NCBI RefSeq assembly: GCF_000186245.1
Contig: NC_014935.1
Coordinates: forward strand, 682,001-746,000
Source: Nitratifractor salsuginis DSM 16511
GTDB taxonomy: Bacteria; Campylobacterota; Campylobacteria; Campylobacterales; Sulfurovaceae
Direction of reading: 5' to 3'
Length of the DNA: 64,000 bases
Part shown: one piece after another, positions 5,078 to 63,726 of the stretch
Layout of the letters: each line of letters opens with the position of its first letter
How positions within the stretch are numbered: the stretch's first letter is position 1
The notes under the pieces: model-generated
Told to the model about the DNA's origin: nothing
What the model saw: the letters and a program-made list of their open reading frames with translations, nothing else
The model's database searches: none
Position numbers and translations under genes: made by a program

Positions 5078-6007
5078 TCATTTTTTTGAAGACGTAGTTA
5101 AAAGATCCATAATCGTATCGTACACTTCTTCTAGCCGTGAAAGTTCCCATGGGATATGCAGGCGATAAACGGGGAGCGACTCTGCCATTTTGGCGAAATA
5201 AAAAAAACGTTGGATTTTGGTGAATTCAAAGGGGGCGAAGGGTGTATAGTGAAGAACTTTATATTTTTCGATTCCTATCAGCTTCTCGACGGCAACGGGG
5301 GCATCGGGTGAGGCCTTTTGGAGGCTAAAGAGGGCGGTGATGGGTAAAGGTTTCCGTTTGAAATTTTCCACCCTTTTGCCCAGGGTTTCGGCTTTTCTAA
5401 AAGGCCGCAAAAAAGGGTAGGAAGGGATGGCATAGTAGTCGGAAGCCTTTTGAAGTATCCCCAGAGTGTCATCTGAGAGCAAGGCATGCCCCCTCCGAAC
5501 GAAGTAGTCTGTCAGCGTAGACTTTCCCCCGTAGGAGAATGCTGAGAAGAGGAGTGCTTTTTCGTTTATTTCTACAGAACCAACGTGTAAAATATGATAA
5601 ATGCCTTCCAGCTCAAGTATCTGAGGTAAAAAAGTGTGATAGACCCAATAGCGCAAGCGCTCGGGAGTGAAGGCTTGATGAGGAATGTATTCAATACTAT
5701 GTGTTTTGTGCCGCCACATCAGTGTCAGCACTCCTTCCACTTCAATCCCCCAGTCGATGTTCTTTTTTTCCGTTTGATCGAAAGAGACGGTGCTGAGATA
5801 GCGGAAGGATCTTTTCTGACTCTCTACCTTTTCACTGACATAAGGGGCTTGCAGCTTTTTCTTACCGCTTCGGTATATACGGATATACCGCTGATCGTCG
5901 TAAGCCGTAATGGGTAAATCATACGCTTCATTGAGCTGGGGCTCTTCTTCAAATAGGATATGGTGGCCAAAAACAGATGTCATATTCTTATATTCTTTAT
6001 AATCCAT
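5078..6007 (-). CDS. HprK-like P-loop kinase family protein (locus A)
   Basis: 309 aa, soluble. Residues about 155-185 hold a Walker-A-like SAFSYGGKSTLTDYF and then LLSDDTLGI, the order seen in HPr Ser kinase/phosphorylase relatives (P-loop followed by an Asp-Asp motif). It lacks the HprK signature and N-domain, so HPr is not the assumed substrate. A clear paralogue lies at 62815-63726. HprK-related proteins are known partners of PqqD-like proteins and peptide modification, for example lasso-peptide kinases; a role on the adjacent mini-protein is inference. It is divergent from that gene. ATG 5983 (MTSVFGHH) is an alternative start supported by alignment with the paralogue. Confidence 0.7.
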   Translation of the reverse strand: MDYKEYKNMTSVFGHHILFEEEPQLNEAYDLPITAYDDQRYIRIYRSGKKKLQAPYVSEKVESQKRSFRYLSTVSFDQTEKKNIDWGIEVEGVLTLMWRHKTHSIEYIPHQAFTPERLRYWVYHTFLPQILELEGIYHILHVGSVEINEKALLFSAFSYGGKSTLTDYFVRRGHALLSDDTLGILQKASDYYAIPSYPFLRPFRKAETLGKRVENFKRKPLPITALFSLQKASPDAPVAVEKLIGIEKYKVLHYTPFAPFEFTKIQRFFYFAKMAESLPVYRLHIPWELSRLEEVYDTIMDLLTTSSKK

Positions 6008-6122: not shown

Positions 6123-6308
6123 ATGCCAGAGAAAAAGATGGACTCTTTTGTTGAATCTAAAAAGGAAAAGGTTGAAGGTTCGGAGCGTAGAACATTTATT
6201 AAAAAAGCGTTCTACTCCACTCCTGTACTGGTGGGACTGGGTCAAATGGTCAAACCAAGCTCTGCCCATGCGGATAGTACGACAATCCCCCCGCATCCGG
6301 ATCGATAG
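6123..6308 (+). CDS. Tat-signal mini-protein with an 11-residue exported tail (locus A)
   Basis: 61 aa. After a charged leader (1-24) it carries a twin-arginine stretch ERRTFIKKAFYSTPVLVGLG, a hydrophobic core, and an AHA cleavage site near residue 50. Only DSTTIPPHPDR would remain after cleavage. Strong ribosome site AGGAAGGGG. Paralogous in layout to the 58-aa protein at 61899-62075 (RRNFLKKAAYSAPSIMVLG). Each lies in a locus with an HprK-like protein and homologous exported proteins. The tail is too short to fold, so it is either a peptide product, a modified peptide or an anchor. Function unknown; the Tat-like leader is seen directly. Confidence 0.7.
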   Translation: MPEKKMDSFVESKKEKVEGSERRTFIKKAFYSTPVLVGLGQMVKPSSAHADSTTIPPHPDR

Positions 6309-6320
6309 AAAGGAAATGGT

Positions 6321-7754
6321 ATGAAGATGACACTCAAATATGCTACGGTACTCCTCCTTTCGGGCACACTTTCTTCATTGAACGCGGCACCGAGTTGTCT
6401 CGAAGTCTGGGGAAGTGGACTGGAAGCAGGCTCTGACAACTCGACTGCCTTCGATTTTGATACGAACTCCCCTATACCGCGGCTCTATGACTGGGTCAAC
6501 TGCAGGCTCATAGGTAAGGACAAAAGTGGTGATATGGAGTGCCGCGACAGCAATAACAATATTGTAGCCAACGTCGATGTCACCGGTTATGAACGCACGA
6601 CGATCAGTGATTCCACTCCAGGCGGTGAAGACCTGGTGGTCAACGAGAACGAGACGCTGACTCTGACACCGGGGCAAACCTATGACTATAATTCGATTCA
6701 AGTAAGTGAAGGTGGAAAAATTTTAGTGGGCTCCGGTAACGGAGTGGTGTATATCCGCGTAAGCGGCGATGTCAAACTCGATAAGAATGCATTTATCAAC
6801 TGCAGCTCATATCCGGGCAACGACGGAGACACCAACGGTTTCGGCGATCCTCAGAAACTGGTGATATACACCAATGGTCAATTTCAGTTTGGAGGGGAGC
6901 AGGCTTGTATCTCAGGGTTTGTATATGCCAAGGGCAAGATAGATTTCAATGATGATGCTCGGGTAATGGGGTCTGTCTCAGCGGACTATTTCGACAATGT
7001 CAAATCGGGGACCGAAATCCATGAAAGACAGCCAAGCGGTGACTTCTCGCCACTCTGTGAACCGGGAGCTGCGGCGGAAGACGGTTGGCATTTTGTAGGT
7101 ATACCCGCCGATACCTCGGCTGATTCCGCGACGGTGGATGACATTTTTGGGGATAATTTCGGGACACTCAGATATTCGACGAGCGGGCCCGGCTGGACTT
7201 TATACCGTCGTGACTTTAGTACAACGGACAATAGCAGCAGTTATACGACAATGGATATTAACGATACGCTTGAGACAGGCAGGGGCTATTGGCTATATAC
7301 TGATACCAAGCGCATATGGGATGTGGAACGTGCAAGCCCAATAAACTGGAACATTGCCAAGGGAACGGATGGCTGCCAATCTGATAACGGCTGTATCGAA
7401 TATCGCCTGCCCGTGCCAGTCCAGGATTGCGCCACAGCACCGGCCTCGGATCGGTTCAGGAACGTGATGGTCGGTTATCCGGGTAAAAGCAATGCGGATT
7501 GGAAAGATTACCGTTTCCTTCTCGATGGTTCAACAGTATATACCCCCTCTGAGGCAGAAACGGCGGGTTATGCCCTGAAAAAGATCCACCAGTATGACAG
7601 GGCGGCGGATGACTATACCACCTGTGACGATACCGATCAAACACCGGGCGCCTGTGTCACCAAGCCTTGGGAAGGGATATGGGTACAGGTCGAATGTGGT
7701 ACGGCGGGACATACACTCGATCTTGTCATTCCCAACGGAGGAGCACAACAATGA
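6321..7754 (+). CDS. Exported beta-rich surface protein (locus A)
   Basis: 477 aa with a signal peptide (1-22, ending LNAA). Residues about 105-240 are a repetitive beta region (GNGVVYIRVSGDVKLDKNAF, ISGFVYAKGKIDFNDDARV, MGSVSA) reminiscent of MshQ/PilX-type adhesin and polymer-forming repeats. Residues about 254-477 form a domain shared with the 804-aa protein of locus B: GWHFVGIP, GRGYWLY, the MVGYPGK segment and KPWEGIWVQVE. Several Cys residues could form disulfides outside the cytoplasm. It lies 12 bases after the mini-protein and shares an ATGA overlap with the next gene. Probably a cell-surface or secreted structural protein; ligand unknown. Confidence 0.7.
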   Translation: MKMTLKYATVLLLSGTLSSLNAAPSCLEVWGSGLEAGSDNSTAFDFDTNSPIPRLYDWVNCRLIGKDKSGDMECRDSNNNIVANVDVTGYERTTISDSTPGGEDLVVNENETLTLTPGQTYDYNSIQVSEGGKILVGSGNGVVYIRVSGDVKLDKNAFINCSSYPGNDGDTNGFGDPQKLVIYTNGQFQFGGEQACISGFVYAKGKIDFNDDARVMGSVSADYFDNVKSGTEIHERQPSGDFSPLCEPGAAAEDGWHFVGIPADTSADSATVDDIFGDNFGTLRYSTSGPGWTLYRRDFSTTDNSSSYTTMDINDTLETGRGYWLYTDTKRIWDVERASPINWNIAKGTDGCQSDNGCIEYRLPVPVQDCATAPASDRFRNVMVGYPGKSNADWKDYRFLLDGSTVYTPSEAETAGYALKKIHQYDRAADDYTTCDDTDQTPGACVTKPWEGIWVQVECGTAGHTLDLVIPNGGAQQ

Positions 7755-8590
7755 AACGATACAGCAAAATATTGACCCGATCCATAGCGGCGACAAGTTT
7801 AATCGCTCTGATGACGAGTTCGCTGGAAGCCAGACTTCAGACCGGTCCTATCGTGAATCACGAGGTTCAACAACATAGAATCGAAAGGTTGGCAAAACAC
7901 AAAAGAGTCAGAGTCGGGGCTATGTGGGCAATGACACTCTATGCCGAAGATGCTGACAGCAAACTCAAAAGCGTAGAGACGCGATTCGGTCAGATCAAAA
8001 AGGCCAAAAAGGGTGTCGATGCCTATGATCAGGAATCCTTTCCCAGTTGGCCGAAGCTCGCCGTCAATTTCGAGGCTGATGGACCCGGGAGCAAATATAA
8101 GGGAGACTACCATAACATCACGAGATGGAGAGGTGACGAATGGAATTTCGTCGTAACTTCCAGCGATGTCAACAGAGCCGTAACGCTTCGATGGTCTGAA
8201 CTCCAGAAAGTGGTATTGCTCAAAAGTAAAGCTCAACCAAGACCCTACAAACGCATCGAAGCACCCGGAGCCAGAAAACTTCGCCGACTGCTGCTTATCG
8301 ATCTCAAGACCGGTGAAAAGATCCCTGCTGTGATCGACGGAAAGCTGCAGAGCTATACGTTCAATATGGAGGGGGAAAAGACTCGTAGATTCAAATGGAA
8401 GTTTCTTTCGGTTAGAGAGTATTTCAAAAGTAGAAGATTGGCCCATCGTAATATGAGAGCAAAACGCAGATTGGAAAAGATATACGCCAAAGAGCTCGCA
8501 AAAAGCCTAAGAGCGGAAAAGAGAGCGAAGAGGCACTCGTCACATCATACTCCTCCACCGGCTGGAAAGAAAGAGATTATTGAAGAGTAG
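7751..8590 (+). CDS. Exported basic protein, homologous to the locus B lipoprotein
   Basis: 279 aa. A signal peptide (about 1-26, ending SLEA) precedes a domain (about 60-220) that matches the 61081-61803 lipoprotein in order: a GDYHN/GDYWS block, RGDEWNF/ERAVWTF, then LIDLKTGEKIPAVIDGKLQ versus LVDVDNKQTYSVDELDKIN and FKWKF/FRWVRG. The C-terminal 60 residues are very rich in Arg, Lys and His, unlike the paralogue. ATG 7751 overlaps the preceding stop (ATGA), implying translational coupling. No known family; likely a periplasmic or surface partner of the preceding protein. Confidence 0.65.
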   Translation: MKRYSKILTRSIAATSLIALMTSSLEARLQTGPIVNHEVQQHRIERLAKHKRVRVGAMWAMTLYAEDADSKLKSVETRFGQIKKAKKGVDAYDQESFPSWPKLAVNFEADGPGSKYKGDYHNITRWRGDEWNFVVTSSDVNRAVTLRWSELQKVVLLKSKAQPRPYKRIEAPGARKLRRLLLIDLKTGEKIPAVIDGKLQSYTFNMEGEKTRRFKWKFLSVREYFKSRRLAHRNMRAKRRLEKIYAKELAKSLRAEKRAKRHSSHHTPPPAGKKEIIEE

Positions 8591-57947: not shown

Positions 57948-58048
57948 AAATACATTATACATTATAAAGGTACAACTCATTCTGTTATACTTTTATTTAA
58001 ATTTAAGAAATTGAAATATTAAAAATCAGCAGAATGAAGGTGATAAAG

Positions 58049-58321
58049 ATGGATTTCTCCAAGAAAGTGATTTTTCCCGATTCTATATTCGCCCAGGAAG
58101 TGGACGGCGAGATGGTGCTGCTGGATATGAACACCGAAAATTACTTCGGTCTCGACAGCGTCGCCAGTGATATCTGGAAGCTGCTTCAGGAAGGTAAAAC
58201 GATCGGGGAGACATACGAGGCGCTTCTGGAGATCTATGAAGTGGACCCGGAGACACTCAGGAAAGATCTCGAAACCTTTATCGATAATCTCCTGGAAAAC
58301 AGGCTTGCTTTTATAGAGTAA
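58049..58321 (+). CDS. PqqD-like peptide chaperone/carrier (locus B)
   Basis: 90 aa. VDGEMVLLDMNTENYFGLDSVASDIWKLLQEGKTI matches the PqqD/RRE fold (an aspartate-containing beta strand, tyrosine-containing turn, then helices), and residues about 55-90 complete it. PqqD-like RREs hold a peptide substrate for a modifying enzyme. No radical-SAM, B2-type protease or PqqE gene is present; the HprK-like protein at the end of the locus is the only obvious enzyme. ATG 58049 has GAAGG upstream; ATG 58034 is possible. Confidence 0.75.
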   Translation: MDFSKKVIFPDSIFAQEVDGEMVLLDMNTENYFGLDSVASDIWKLLQEGKTIGETYEALLEIYEVDPETLRKDLETFIDNLLENRLAFIE

Positions 58322-58655: not shown

Positions 58656-61070
58656 ATGGAAAAAATACATAAGCAATTGTTGAAGCGGTTTTTTGTTTTG
58701 GGGATGTTATTGCTCGGAAGTTTGGCATTCCCTTCAACATTCGACTGGGAGACAGAAGGATGGTCGCCTGATGGAGCTTTGAGTCAAAACTATACCAATG
58801 TAGATGATTCCGGAGTTAATGTCAGTATCACTGTGACAGGTGATACTGACAAATTGCAGGACAGTACTCCAAAGCTGGATGACGGTGGAGGGAGTCTTTC
58901 CAATGATAATCTGGAGTTTTATGCGGATTATGATGATACAACCCAGAAAATTACGGTAACGATAAAATTCTCTACGCCGGTTAAATTAAGTAATTTGAGA
59001 TTCAGAGATATAGATTATGCCGATGACGGTACATATGAGTTTAATGACAAAATTATCGTCACCGCACAAGATATTGATGGGAATACAGTTACTCCCAATG
59101 ATGTCCAATTGGGAGATTATGTCCAAAGTAATGCAGCAGGTGAATATGAATCTGATGAAAATCAAGACCACAATGGGGGGCCTGACAATACCGGGGCAAT
59201 GGTCACCCTGGGATTTACTGATGTATACGTAAGTGAATTGACTTTCGTCTATACTGATGGAGATATCAATACTGATAACCCTACTGGCCAGGCGATTTGG
59301 TTTGACAATTTTGATTTTGAAGCTCTCGATACTGATGGAGATGGTGTTGTAGATGTCAAAGATATCGACGATGATAACGATGGAATTTTGGATGTAAACG
59401 AGAGAACTCCTGTTGTGGCTCAGACAGTTTCCAATACAGATACAGGAACGATTCCTGATGATGGATATCCCGACAACTGTCTGGATCGAACATTTAACGT
59501 ATCAGATGGTGATGTTATCGACGATATAACGATTTTAGTAAAAATAGAACATTCATGGAGAGGAGATCTTGTTGTTCAACTCATTTCTCCCTTTGGAACA
59601 GTGATTGATTTGATAAGAGATGAAGGGGGGAATGCCCAAAATTTAAGTACCAATTTCTCCGATGCCGCGACGGAATCTATCGGTGATGATAGTGATGATC
59701 AAGATTTGGATCATCCGGTGTATAGAAAACCTGATCAGCCGCTGAGTACATTTAATGGAGAAGATCCGAAAGGCACTTGGACACTGCATATGTGTGATGA
59801 TGCGAGTCAAGATGAAGGAACCTTCAACGAGGCAGATCTTAATATCAGCACTTCGAACAATCGGGATAGCGACAACGATGGCATTCTTGATTCTGTCGAC
59901 CTCGACAGCGACAACGACGGCATTCCCGATAATGTGGAGGCGCAATCAACAGGGGATTACACTGCAACGAGTGGAACCGATGACGATGGTGATGGTTTGG
60001 ATGATGCTTATGACCAAAACACCTCAAGTGCCCCCGGAAGTATAGGGCTTGTTTCTCCTGATACCGACGATGACGGTATTCCCGACTACCTCGACAGTGA
60101 CAGTGATAATGATGGCTACAGTGACTGTGAAGAGGGAAGGAATAACCCTGAGTGTGATCCCAACCCGGCTGTAGAAAAGAACGGGCTGCCGGAATGGCTG
60201 CAAGTGGGCGATGGCTATGACAATGTGTCTGCCGGTATAACGGACCCTGATCCGGACGATGGAGGAAATATTCAGGATGAAGTTACCGGTAATCATGAAG
60301 CAGCCTACCGGGAGTTTCTCTGCGGAAAAAACCGAACCACACTGACCCATATGCAGTGGAAAATCATCAGCTTCAGTTGTGATACTGGGGCAAACTCCAT
60401 CTCTGATCTTTTGGGAGGTGACGACGGTTTGGGTGAATATGGTACTGACTGGGTGATGTACGAGCAGAGTGGTAGTGACAACTATGAGATCAACGGTACG
60501 ACCCATCCCAACACGGATAAACGGAAACTCAATGCTGGGGATACCGTCGTGCCGGGCAAGGGATATTGGATCATCGCCGACCTCGGAGGGACGGGGAATG
60601 AAAAGAATATCACTATTAATGAAACACTAGATGATATCAATCCAACATCGGTGGAAGATGCCTCTGCAGTCGGTATCAGTGATGGCAACTTTAGTAAAGT
60701 ACACGAATACCTGCTGCCTAAAAATGAAGTTAGTGATCCAGATACGGTTGATTACAAAAAATATATGGCAGGCAATCCATTCCCTTATGCCTTTCATTTG
60801 GCCAATCTCTATTTTAAACACAATGCAGATGGAATGACTTACCATCCGATGGGAGATATAAATAACGATGATTATATCAACAAAATTGTCTATAAGCATG
60901 ATAGCAATGAAACAGGTCCTGTTACCGGATATGAAGCGATAGATCCTTCGACACCTGGATTCGGCGGCTCCATCGAGCCGATGGAAGGGTTCTTTATCAA
61001 GATCGAGAAGAACCAAAGTGATAATTATGTCAACCATTTCGCCTATCCTCTGACCTACAGTAATGATTAA
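58656..61070 (+). CDS. Large exported protein with P domain, TSP3 calcium repeats and the shared locus domain (locus B)
   Basis: 804 aa. Signal peptide about 1-27. Residues about 30-225 form a beta domain. Around 225-250 and again at 400-500 lie thrombospondin type 3-like Asp-rich repeats (DTDGDGVVDVKDIDDDNDG, DLDSDNDGIPD), which bind calcium. Residues about 255-395 form a proprotein-convertase P domain (IEHSWRGDLVVQLISPFG, GTWTLHMCDDA). Residues about 566-804 match the C-terminal domain of the 477-aa protein in locus A (GKGYWIIAD, MEGFFIKIE). Probably secreted or surface-bound and calcium-stabilised. The upstream RNA may control it. Confidence 0.8.
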   Translation: MEKIHKQLLKRFFVLGMLLLGSLAFPSTFDWETEGWSPDGALSQNYTNVDDSGVNVSITVTGDTDKLQDSTPKLDDGGGSLSNDNLEFYADYDDTTQKITVTIKFSTPVKLSNLRFRDIDYADDGTYEFNDKIIVTAQDIDGNTVTPNDVQLGDYVQSNAAGEYESDENQDHNGGPDNTGAMVTLGFTDVYVSELTFVYTDGDINTDNPTGQAIWFDNFDFEALDTDGDGVVDVKDIDDDNDGILDVNERTPVVAQTVSNTDTGTIPDDGYPDNCLDRTFNVSDGDVIDDITILVKIEHSWRGDLVVQLISPFGTVIDLIRDEGGNAQNLSTNFSDAATESIGDDSDDQDLDHPVYRKPDQPLSTFNGEDPKGTWTLHMCDDASQDEGTFNEADLNISTSNNRDSDNDGILDSVDLDSDNDGIPDNVEAQSTGDYTATSGTDDDGDGLDDAYDQNTSSAPGSIGLVSPDTDDDGIPDYLDSDSDNDGYSDCEEGRNNPECDPNPAVEKNGLPEWLQVGDGYDNVSAGITDPDPDDGGNIQDEVTGNHEAAYREFLCGKNRTTLTHMQWKIISFSCDTGANSISDLLGGDDGLGEYGTDWVMYEQSGSDNYEINGTTHPNTDKRKLNAGDTVVPGKGYWIIADLGGTGNEKNITINETLDDINPTSVEDASAVGISDGNFSKVHEYLLPKNEVSDPDTVDYKKYMAGNPFPYAFHLANLYFKHNADGMTYHPMGDINNDDYINKIVYKHDSNETGPVTGYEAIDPSTPGFGGSIEPMEGFFIKIEKNQSDNYVNHFAYPLTYSND

Positions 61071-61080
61071 GGAGCTCCTG

Positions 61081-61803
61081 ATGCAAAGCAAAAATATTTA
61101 TAGATTTTTTTCTTTCCTGATATTATTCTCACTGGTCGGTCTGATGCAGGGATGTCAGGGGACTTCCCAGGATGGGTTGGGTTCCTCCGACAAAAAACAA
61201 GAGACAAATCCCGATACAGGGAAAGACTCCAAAGCCGGAGAAGGCGGATGGTATATGCGTACTCGAGTCTCTGCCACTGCAGAAGACGGGACCGTTTATC
61301 AGCATAATACAGCCGGGGTTTTCGGTCGGCTTGTTGACAGCTGGAATGGAAAAGACCGACACGATATCCCCGCCTACGGGCCGGCAGCACTCCAGGTGGT
61401 TTTTCCTCATTATAATTGGGGAGATAAGGAGAGCGGTGATTACTGGAGCGATTATCGTAGCTACCCGGAGAAGGGGTCGAATGAAAGAGCTGTCTGGACC
61501 TTCCAGGTCAAAAATCAAAAGAGTGTCGACCTCTCCAATGCGGATATTAGGATTAAACTTGATGACGCGAGGCGTGTGGACTTTGTCAAAATAGATGGAA
61601 ATATCCGGTATAAAGAGACCGGCCTCAACCAAGGAATGAAGAACCAATTTACTCTGGTTGATGTGGACAATAAGCAGACGTACAGTGTCGATGAACTGGA
61701 TAAGATCAATCTCAATATGGACGGTAAACACATCCGGACATTCCGATGGGTCAGGGGGCCGGTACTTGAGGAAGATTTTAAACCAGTCGTGCTGCCGAAA
61801 TGA
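61081..61803 (+). CDS. Lipoprotein homologous to the locus A exported protein
   Basis: 240 aa. Lipobox LVGLMQGC near residue 24 (Cys then acylated). The domain from about 60 matches the 7751-8590 protein: GDYWSDYRSYPEKGSNERAVW, then KIDGNIRYKETG, FTLVDVDNKQTY and RTFRWVRG. ATG 61081 follows GGAGCTCCTG just after the stop of the large gene; an in-frame ATG at 61063 overlaps that stop. A damaged second copy of part of this gene lies at 62125-62248. Confidence 0.75.
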   Translation: MQSKNIYRFFSFLILFSLVGLMQGCQGTSQDGLGSSDKKQETNPDTGKDSKAGEGGWYMRTRVSATAEDGTVYQHNTAGVFGRLVDSWNGKDRHDIPAYGPAALQVVFPHYNWGDKESGDYWSDYRSYPEKGSNERAVWTFQVKNQKSVDLSNADIRIKLDDARRVDFVKIDGNIRYKETGLNQGMKNQFTLVDVDNKQTYSVDELDKINLNMDGKHIRTFRWVRGPVLEEDFKPVVLPK

Positions 61804-61898: not shown

Positions 61899-62075
61899 AT
61901 GAATAAGCAAAAAAGAGAGAAGCTGAATGGCAAGATGCTTAATGCTCGCCGGAACTTTTTGAAAAAGGCTGCATATTCGGCTCCATCCATAATGGTGTTG
62001 GGCAGCTTGGCCAAGCCTACTAGGGCAAAAGCCGATCAATTCGGAGGACCACCAAGCGATCCATCTGGCTGGTAA
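61899..62075 (+). CDS. Tat-signal mini-protein with a 13-residue exported tail (locus B)
   Basis: 58 aa, below usual gene-calling length. A charged leader is followed by ARRNFLKKAAYSAPSIMVLG, a hydrophobic core, and AKA before the tail DQFGGPPSDPSGW. It parallels the 61-aa protein of locus A in leader, KKAxYSxP motif, core, cleavage site and a short Pro-rich tail. The ATG is behind AGGAGA. It lies between the lipoprotein gene and a broken copy of that gene. The tail, rather than a folded protein, would be the exported product; this is inference. Confidence 0.65.
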   Translation: MNKQKREKLNGKMLNARRNFLKKAAYSAPSIMVLGSLAKPTRAKADQFGGPPSDPSGW

Positions 62076-62124
62076 TAAGAAAGGGTCCTCTATCAAGATC
62101 GATAAAAATCAGAATATGATCAGA

Positions 62125-62248
62125 AGATGAGGCGTGTGAACTTTGTCAAAGTAAATGGAAATATCCGCTATACAGAAACCAATCTAACTAAAAAAGGATG
62201 GTAAACCGATTCATTCTAATGGATACGGACAATATAAACAGATATACC
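62125..62248 (+). pseudogene. Broken partial copy of the locus B lipoprotein gene
   Basis: 62125-62180 matches 61565-61620 with few changes (both contain GGCGTGTG, CTTTGTCAAA and ATGGAAATATCCG), translating as RRVNFVKVNGNIRYTET. After that the frame meets a stop (GGATGGTAA) and identity fades, although GACAATATAAACAGATATAC still parallels GACAATAAGCAGACGTAC. No start or upstream domain remains. Evidence of a duplicated module now decaying. Confidence 0.75.
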
Positions 62249-62296
62249 TTCCAATGCCGGATTCAGTAGCGTTTTGATAGAAAGGGACGAATATTT

Positions 62297-62716
62297 ATGC
62301 CGAAAAATCGAGCGATTTTATATGGAGTGATTCTTCTTGTGTTGGTAGTGGTCGCTTTTATGAGATTCAATACTGATAAAGTGAATCAAAAACCTGCCGC
62401 TACGGGCGCAGCGACAACCCAAACAGAGAACACATCCTCTGCCATAGATGCAAATGAGGCTCTGAACGCTGGAGTTGAGAGGGGATTTCACCCGAAAAAT
62501 TCCAATACCGAAGAGGAAAAGAACTCTTCGCTCAATGCGGAGAGAATGGAGAGCGCAGAATCTGGATCGAACGAAGATGAAGGAACCGGTGACGAAGAGG
62601 CCGAAGATGAAGCTTCCTATGTCAAAAGAACTCACCTCATAGGCGGTGCCGATGTGGTATGGGAACCGCCAAAACCCAAAGATTCTGAAGATAAGTTTGG
62701 AGAACCGCCTGAATAA
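62297..62716 (+). CDS. Small acidic membrane-anchored protein (locus B)
   Basis: 139 aa. One transmembrane helix at about 7-23, then an Ala/Thr/Asn/Glu-rich, strongly acidic outer or periplasmic part (about 60-110 is nearly all Glu, Ser, Asn, Asp) ending in ADVVWEPPKPKDSEDKF. Not recognised. Possibly a linker or tether of the locus B machinery. No similar gene is present in locus A. Confidence 0.55.
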   Translation: MPKNRAILYGVILLVLVVVAFMRFNTDKVNQKPAATGAATTQTENTSSAIDANEALNAGVERGFHPKNSNTEEEKNSSLNAERMESAESGSNEDEGTGDEEAEDEASYVKRTHLIGGADVVWEPPKPKDSEDKFGEPPE

Positions 62717-62814
62717 CCTGACAAAAAGAAAAACTGATTTTATAAAAAATCCGACACATATTCTATTGAGTTCACTGAATATCGTCAGATGTGGGGAGAA
62801 ATGAAGAAGTTTGT

Positions 62815-63726
62815 ATGATACATGGACATCAATTCCTCTTTGTCGATCAGCAAAGTTTGCAAGAAGAGTATGACTCTTTCAAATTTTCTCATTCCGGCAA
62901 CGATAGATTAAACACGATCGAAGTAAGGGAAATCGACACATATCAGGGGTTTGAGCGACGAAGCTCTCTGTTGTATCTGTCTGGACGTGGATGCTATTAT
63001 TTGAGCAACACTTCTCCTGAGAAGATTGAGCGAGATCATGACTGGGGATTGGAGATTGTAAATGTCTTGACCCTGGTTTGGGATGGCAAAAGTAGACGCA
63101 TCCTTTATGCAAAAGGAAGAGACTTTACCCCCCGATTACTTCAATTTTGGATTTATCATACTTTTTTCCCGATCGCGCTTGAATTGGAAAGAAATTACAC
63201 GATGCTTCATGTTGGGGCAGTGGAAATCGATGGAGGAGTGGTTTTCTTTTCTGCCCCCTCCTTCGGGGGGAAATCGACACTTACAGACTATTTCATTGGA
63301 CGCGGGCATACTCTTTTTGCGGATGATACACTCCCGATAAAGCAAGAAAACGGGGAATTTATTGTCTACCCTTCATTCCCTTACCATCGTCCCTATCGAC
63401 AACCGGAAACTCTGGGGCGTCGCGTGGAGAATTTTGCCGGGGAACCTGCCCTTCTCAAAGCCCTTTTTGAGTTGAGACAATGCGAACCGAACGATTCAAT
63501 CGACGTAAGGCCTCTGGAAGGCATTGAAAAGTTCAGGGCTTTTTATCAAAGTGTCTTTGTGAGTTTTTCTTTTATGAAGAAAGAACGCTTTGAATTTTTT
63601 GCGAAAATGGCGATGAAAACTCCCGCTTATCGTGTCTCAATACCCTGGGATAAAGAACGCTTGCCTGAAGTCTACAACGCTATTGTCAAACAGCTTCAGG
63701 ATCAGTCTCAAGTTTCTATAGTATAG
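62815..63726 (+). CDS. HprK-like P-loop kinase family protein (locus B)
   Basis: 303 aa. Paralogue of the locus A protein at 5078-6007. Shared blocks: YHTFFPIALELE, the Walker-A-like SAPSFGGKSTLTDYF near 145-159, LFADDTLPI, PYRQPETLGRRVENF, GIEKF and a common C-terminal region (FAKMA). HprK-type order but no HPr-specific motifs. With the PqqD-like protein it recalls HprK/PqqD pairs in peptide-modification loci; substrate unknown. ATG 62815 (MIHGHQFLF) aligns with the paralogue; GTG 62791 is an alternative. Confidence 0.7.
   Translation: MIHGHQFLFVDQQSLQEEYDSFKFSHSGNDRLNTIEVREIDTYQGFERRSSLLYLSGRGCYYLSNTSPEKIERDHDWGLEIVNVLTLVWDGKSRRILYAKGRDFTPRLLQFWIYHTFFPIALELERNYTMLHVGAVEIDGGVVFFSAPSFGGKSTLTDYFIGRGHTLFADDTLPIKQENGEFIVYPSFPYHRPYRQPETLGRRVENFAGEPALLKALFELRQCEPNDSIDVRPLEGIEKFRAFYQSVFVSFSFMKKERFEFFAKMAMKTPAYRVSIPWDKERLPEVYNAIVKQLQDQSQVSIV

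Follow-up and report, generated by a model that had tools for sequence, protein, structure and literature searches.

Short Tat-leader proteins of Campylobacterota that may be RiPP precursors akin to lasso peptides and linear phosphopeptides

Two short proteins encoded in the window, a 64,000-nucleotide part of the complete 2.10-Mb genome of Nitratifractor salsuginis, are probably (at roughly two chances in three) Tat-exported RiPP precursors akin to lasso peptides and to linear polyphosphorylated peptides (LPPs), which would be docked on an RRE, phosphorylated, exported by Tat and cleaved by signal peptidase. This reading is built on what the sequences display: a hybrid leader, homologues, co-occurrence with a kinase and an RRE protein, the layout of the cassettes, a tail motif repeated on a partner protein, and a complete genome in which no lasso protease or cyclase was found.

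An earlier note had singled out two tiny Tat-type ORFs in the window. Both are there exactly as it described (peptides 1 and 2, Table 1), and its reading of them as a Tat-type leader followed by a very short tail was borne out. Plausible Shine-Dalgarno sequences lie 5' of each (GGAG and GGAAGGGG, respectively), and the genome holds a third paralogue (match at G000:C1:1705750-1705893; 69 aa; tail DGTGGPPPPPFGGWLP). A search for the leader in related genomes, which the note had set beforehand as its check, recovered homologues in Sulfurovaceae and other Campylobacterales whose leader is near-invariant and whose tail varies; the best congeneric homologue scored E=2.6e-14, and a profile search added further ones at E=1e-6 to 4e-29. 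In 11/11 pairs of homologous peptide genes pN was below pS (e.g. 0.05 vs 0.20; 0.15 vs 0.48), the pattern expected of genes that are translated and under purifying selection. The short ORFs are real genes, not chance ORFs, and belong to a conserved system. Family scans placed neither peptide in a Pfam or NCBIfam family above cut-off, and tblastn of a plasmid collection gave matches at chance level only.

Table 1. Genes of the peptide cassettes (window positions unless a locus is named)
Feature	Coordinates	Strand	Remarks
Peptide 1	61899..62075	+	58 aa; Tat/lasso hybrid leader RRNFLKKAAYSAPSIMVLGSLAKPTRAKA, tail DQFGGPPSDPSGW
Peptide 2	6123..6308	+	61 aa; leader type as peptide 1; tail DSTTIPPHPDR
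HprK-like kinase, cassette 1	62791..63726	+	
HprK-like kinase, cassette 2	5078..6007	-	divergent to peptide 2
HprK-like kinase, paralogue 3 cassette	L006 6816-7784		
PqqD-family RRE	58034..58321	+	nearest solved homologue lasso B1 protein TbiB1; genome's only copy of its type
SURF, cassette 1	58656..61070	+	large secreted protein; P-domain, TSP3-like repeats
LIPO-family protein, cassette 1	61063..61803	+	C-terminal FGxPP absent
139-aa protein	62297..62716	+	N-terminal TM segment; C-terminal FGEPPE, like peptide 1 tail
SURF-family protein, cassette 2	6321..7754	+	
LIPO-family protein, cassette 2	7751..8590	+	C-terminus ...HHTPPPAGKKEIIEE

The leader is a composite, in which the Tat motif RRxFLKK is followed by the lasso leader consensus (Y0-P3-L5-G9-T15) and then by a signal-peptidase AxA site. 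With the conserved Tyr counted as position 0, we compared 37 Tat leaders with 10 classical lasso-type precursors from linked loci. Every Tat leader has Tyr or Trp at 0, Pro at 3, Leu, Ile or Val at 5 and Gly at 9 (37/37 each), with P14 and A19 in 36/37 each and T15 in 19/37; the classical precursors have Y0, P3 and T15 in 10/10 and G9 in 8/10. By these residue counts, the Tat leader is therefore the lasso consensus in unchanged register, with RRxFLKK set before it and a signal-peptidase site after it. The combination that marks a lasso leader, YxxPx[L/I/V] plus Thr at position 15, is present, this position being Thr in peptide 1 and Ser in peptide 2; T15 is the Thr at the last position but one of lasso leaders (PMC10368454); the Tat leaders keep it less strictly, and most of their genomes are without the lasso leader protease B2. 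The filling of the register is hydrophobic in the Tat type and polar in the lasso type (mean hydropathy of sampled leaders 1.3 vs -0.6), and YxxP is absent from 18 other Tat leaders of the window genome and its relatives. Among the hallmarks of a Tat substrate we found the RRxFLK motif, the hydrophobic region, the AxA site and a TatC gene in the genome, but not a folded or cofactor-bearing cargo, the tails being 13 (peptide 1) and 11 (peptide 2) residues long. An unfolded tail of 13 residues is an unusual Tat cargo and counts against the RiPP reading.

All three paralogues in the window genome have HprK-like kinase, SURF and LIPO-family genes nearby. The predicted kinase structure (mean pLDDT 92.7) has its matches among HPr kinase/phosphatases. 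Four of its residues, H132, K153, D170 and D171, do not vary among 28 sequences and appear, by motif, to correspond to the His-Lys-Asp-Asp set reported to be essential in lasso kinases (PMC9266682). Among solved homologues of the PqqD protein, TbiB1 ranks best (E 1.9e-14), with LppB and PbaB1 next; residues D70, F74 and V35 of LppB, which hold the leader Tyr and Pro (PMC13381572), align to identical residues in the window protein. A single PqqD for three cassettes counts against the RiPP reading, as does the draft assembly G010, which gave no PqqD match. A second PqqD-like gene of the window genome (L005 1408-1692, at G000:C1:1533792) was set aside, as it directly precedes an ATP-grasp-like ORF in a different context and probably belongs to another system.

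To gauge co-occurrence we surveyed 398 Campylobacterales genomes, using a peptide threshold of about E<=1e-6 and, because PF05402 alone is too coarse for the specific PqqD, adding a profile built on linked PqqDs. The peptide was found in 15 genomes, the kinase in 27 and the specific PqqD in 27. Kinase and specific PqqD are present together in 15/15 peptide genomes, a co-occurrence that spans three families, and the kinase in 12/383 genomes without the peptide (Fisher 3e-20, kinship uncorrected). B2 scored above cut-off in 4/15 peptide genomes vs 9 of the 12 with kinase and no peptide. Peptide and kinase lie on separate contigs in four genomes (G003, G005, G008 and G411), which counts against the RiPP reading, and co-occurrence alone is no proof of action on the peptides, since kinase and PqqD are common to lasso clusters too.

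Scanning 84,980 species genomes with a kinase profile gave 65 loci. A Tat-leader peptide stands at 33 of them, usually in the order SURF-LIPO-peptide-kinase-PqqD; loci of the Sulfuricurvum and Arcobacter types consist of peptide, kinase and PqqD only, with SURF and LIPO absent. Lasso B2 protease and/or cyclase genes accompany the kinase at 21 further loci, and a Tat peptide meets a B2 or cyclase match at only three (L085, L130 and L141, the match at L141 being short). On the kinase tree the two labels, Tat and lasso, cluster but also intermingle (8 and 9 changes; 23.6 and 19.7 on average after shuffling), and the kinase has therefore probably switched partner several times. Closest to the cassette-1 kinase is the kinase of L082, where lasso enzymes are present but no precursor was found.

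The earlier note had suggested that Ser or Thr in the tails could be modified by an HprK-like kinase. Both elements are in place: the gene of such a kinase lies beside the peptide gene, and 35/36 tails contain Ser or Thr. Counting from the predicted cleavage site, these residues stand at +3 in 16/32 short tails, vs 4.5 expected by shuffling (20,000 shuffles, maximum 14), and at +7 in 12/32. In LPPs, LppK phosphorylates core Ser3 and leaves Thr unmodified (PMC13381572). Peptide 2 has S2/T3 and peptide 1 has S8 and S11; a Ser at +8, neither +3 nor +7, counts against an LPP-like reading, while the paralogue 3 tail, with Thr only, and the L097 tail, with neither residue, count against phosphorylation.

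Tail motifs are conserved inside classes, and one class points to a partner. Wherever a peptide with an FGxPP-like tail has a complete neighbourhood, FG[L/E/Y]PP forms the C-terminus of the LIPO protein or, failing that, of the 139-aa TM protein (7/7), vs 1/20 with other peptide tails (Fisher 9e-6, kinship uncorrected; pairing scored by hand). In cassette 1 of the window the motif is on the 139-aa protein and not on LIPO; at L104, where two cassettes are adjacent, it is only on the LIPO of the FG peptide; and the sole gammaproteobacterial case (L144) shows the identical pairing. The pairing suggests, short of proof, that peptide tail and surface-protein tail may bind one common site. The LIPO family is predicted to adopt a beta-rich fold with conserved Trp, Gly and Asp, and its model (mean pLDDT 84) had no significant match in the PDB (best E 0.02, low probability).

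This pairing is also what one would expect if the peptides were unmodified Tat-exported ligands or regulators of SURF/LIPO, the kinase and RRE acting elsewhere, for example on the Tat leader or another cassette protein; the tails without Ser, or without Ser and Thr, fit that account as well. We nevertheless consider it unlikely, because Arcobacter- and Sulfuricurvum-type loci keep peptide, kinase and PqqD with no SURF or LIPO to act on, Ser/Thr is concentrated at +3, and the leader retains its RRE motif.

Less probable still is that the proteins are true lasso precursors with a decorated leader, their enzymes encoded elsewhere and the ring of FGxPPSD tails closing at Asp8/9. The leader consensus is indeed complete, and Asp at 8 or 9 is kept in most FG-class tails. 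Moreover, in the relative G007 (L039/L094) a classical lasso leader carries a closely similar tail, DFGGSPSDPQGGAWGQ, and the contig also encodes PqqD, B2 (NF033537, 83 bits) and a lasso-type cyclase; the FG tail is thus present on both leader types. Against this, the complete window genome gave no NF033537 match for B2 and no match to the G007 cyclase (E<=0.001), and B2 is missing from 11/15 peptide genomes; a weak PF13471 (B2) match in the window genome was rejected as spurious, since an ATP-synthase-b-like gene overlaps it in another frame. Asp or Glu occupies core positions 7-9 in only 11/36 tails (D9 in peptide 1, none in peptide 2), and neither the peptide 2 tail nor the SVPGPPVW tails could close such a ring. 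With neither B2 nor a lasso-type cyclase in the window genome, a linear product is expected.

That these are ordinary short Tat proteins, uncleaved anchors or accessory Tat peptides beside kinase and PqqD through shared history only, is very improbable: the leader does make up about 80% of the protein and NCBIfam TIGR02811 offers a precedent, but tail motifs are conserved inside classes, kinase and PqqD co-occur over three families, no family matched above cut-off, and the fixed spacing of the AxA-type cleavage-site Ala in 36/37 leaders leaves the earlier note's idea of a non-cleaved anchor unsupported.

If the peptides are Tat-exported RiPP precursors, their path might run as follows. In the cytoplasm, the YxxPxL of the leader would dock on the PqqD/RRE protein, and the HprK-like kinase would phosphorylate Ser/Thr of the tail, typically at +3 or +7. 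The docking motif begins right behind RRxFLKK, within the hydrophobic region, so the bound RRE may conceal the Tat signal until modification is complete, as NapD does for NapA; this masking is a hypothesis drawn from analogy. Tat would then export the precursor and ordinary signal peptidase would cut after AxA, freeing a linear peptide, presumably phosphorylated and about 8-18 residues long, that may act on the co-encoded SURF/LIPO/TM surface proteins, in the FG class on a target whose C-terminus bears the same FGxPP motif. Taken to its full extent, the scheme would make the RRE a Tat proofreading chaperone and a single segment both RRE dock and Tat signal, with only the phosphopeptide exported to control surface proteins of the same motif, and would define a new RiPP class; we offer this extension tentatively and think it rather doubtful as a whole.

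Of known systems, LPPs (Popov et al., Nat Commun 2026), restricted to Bacillota according to their authors (PMC13381572), are the closest. Both have a YxxP leader, a discrete PqqD-like RRE, an HprK-like kinase and no cyclase (here in the window genome), a conserved leader with a variable C-terminus, Ser at core position 3, and signal-peptidase-type cleavage (here predicted). LPPs employ a dedicated SpI-like peptidase, an MsbA-like ABC exporter and an NTP transferase, and the core in the studied case is 45 aa long (PMC13381572); family scans of the cassette proteins in the window turned up none of these three components. The present family has instead a Tat-signal leader bearing an AxA site, tails of mostly 8-18 aa, accompanying SURF and LIPO proteins and another host phylum, Campylobacterota. 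The HQ and FET of the extended LPP leader motif, YxxPxVLxHQxIxFETxxS, are absent; the Tat family would work like an LPP system without that motif. Phosphorylated lasso peptides of the paeninodin type share the Y0/P3/L5/G9/T15 register, a B1-like RRE and an HprK-like kinase, but here the window genome has no B2 or cyclase, the leader is hydrophobic and of Tat type, most tails are without a ring-closing acid at 7-9, and Ser is usually not C-terminal. The binding epitope of NapD on NapA overlaps the twin-arginine motif (PMC3712460), and here too a cytoplasmic binder of such an epitope could delay export until maturation, although this binder would be a winged-helix RRE gripping an extended peptide. 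Proteins of the formate_TAT family (TIGR02811) are likewise short and mostly Tat signal, but have no known link to a kinase or RRE; the window peptides did not match that family, and one homologue reached 13.3 bits vs a cut-off of 48.45.

Full-text literature searches, to which subscription papers were mostly inaccessible, returned no description of Tat-exported or Tat-leader RiPPs. If correct, the Tat-exported RiPP reading would add a route by which modified peptides are made and exported, one for which we found no earlier description, connect RRE-guided peptide modification to Tat quality control, and extend kinase-associated RiPPs to chemosynthetic Campylobacterota. The similar tail on both leader types would connect lasso peptides with linear phosphopeptides in evolution, the FGxPP motif common to peptide and surface protein is a pointer to a possible target, and the constructs are short and open to testing.

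Several loci vary the basic cassette. The window has, at 62076-62296, after peptide 1 and ahead of the 139-aa protein, a degenerate LIPO-like fragment (MRRVNFVKVNGNIRYTETNLTKKGW, then a stop), a partial duplication or pseudogene. The two cassettes of L104 (5147-5377 and 8920-9093) are complete and side by side, with different tails and separate LIPO C-termini. At the Sulfuricurvum-type loci L119, L121, L128 and L131, the Tat-leader proteins beside kinase and PqqD are longer (94-151 aa); some have GNGN-rich repeats, and some loci encode two. L130 is a hybrid locus, where a Tat cassette stands together with a lasso cluster made up of B2, a cyclase, PqqD, two kinases and a lasso-type precursor.
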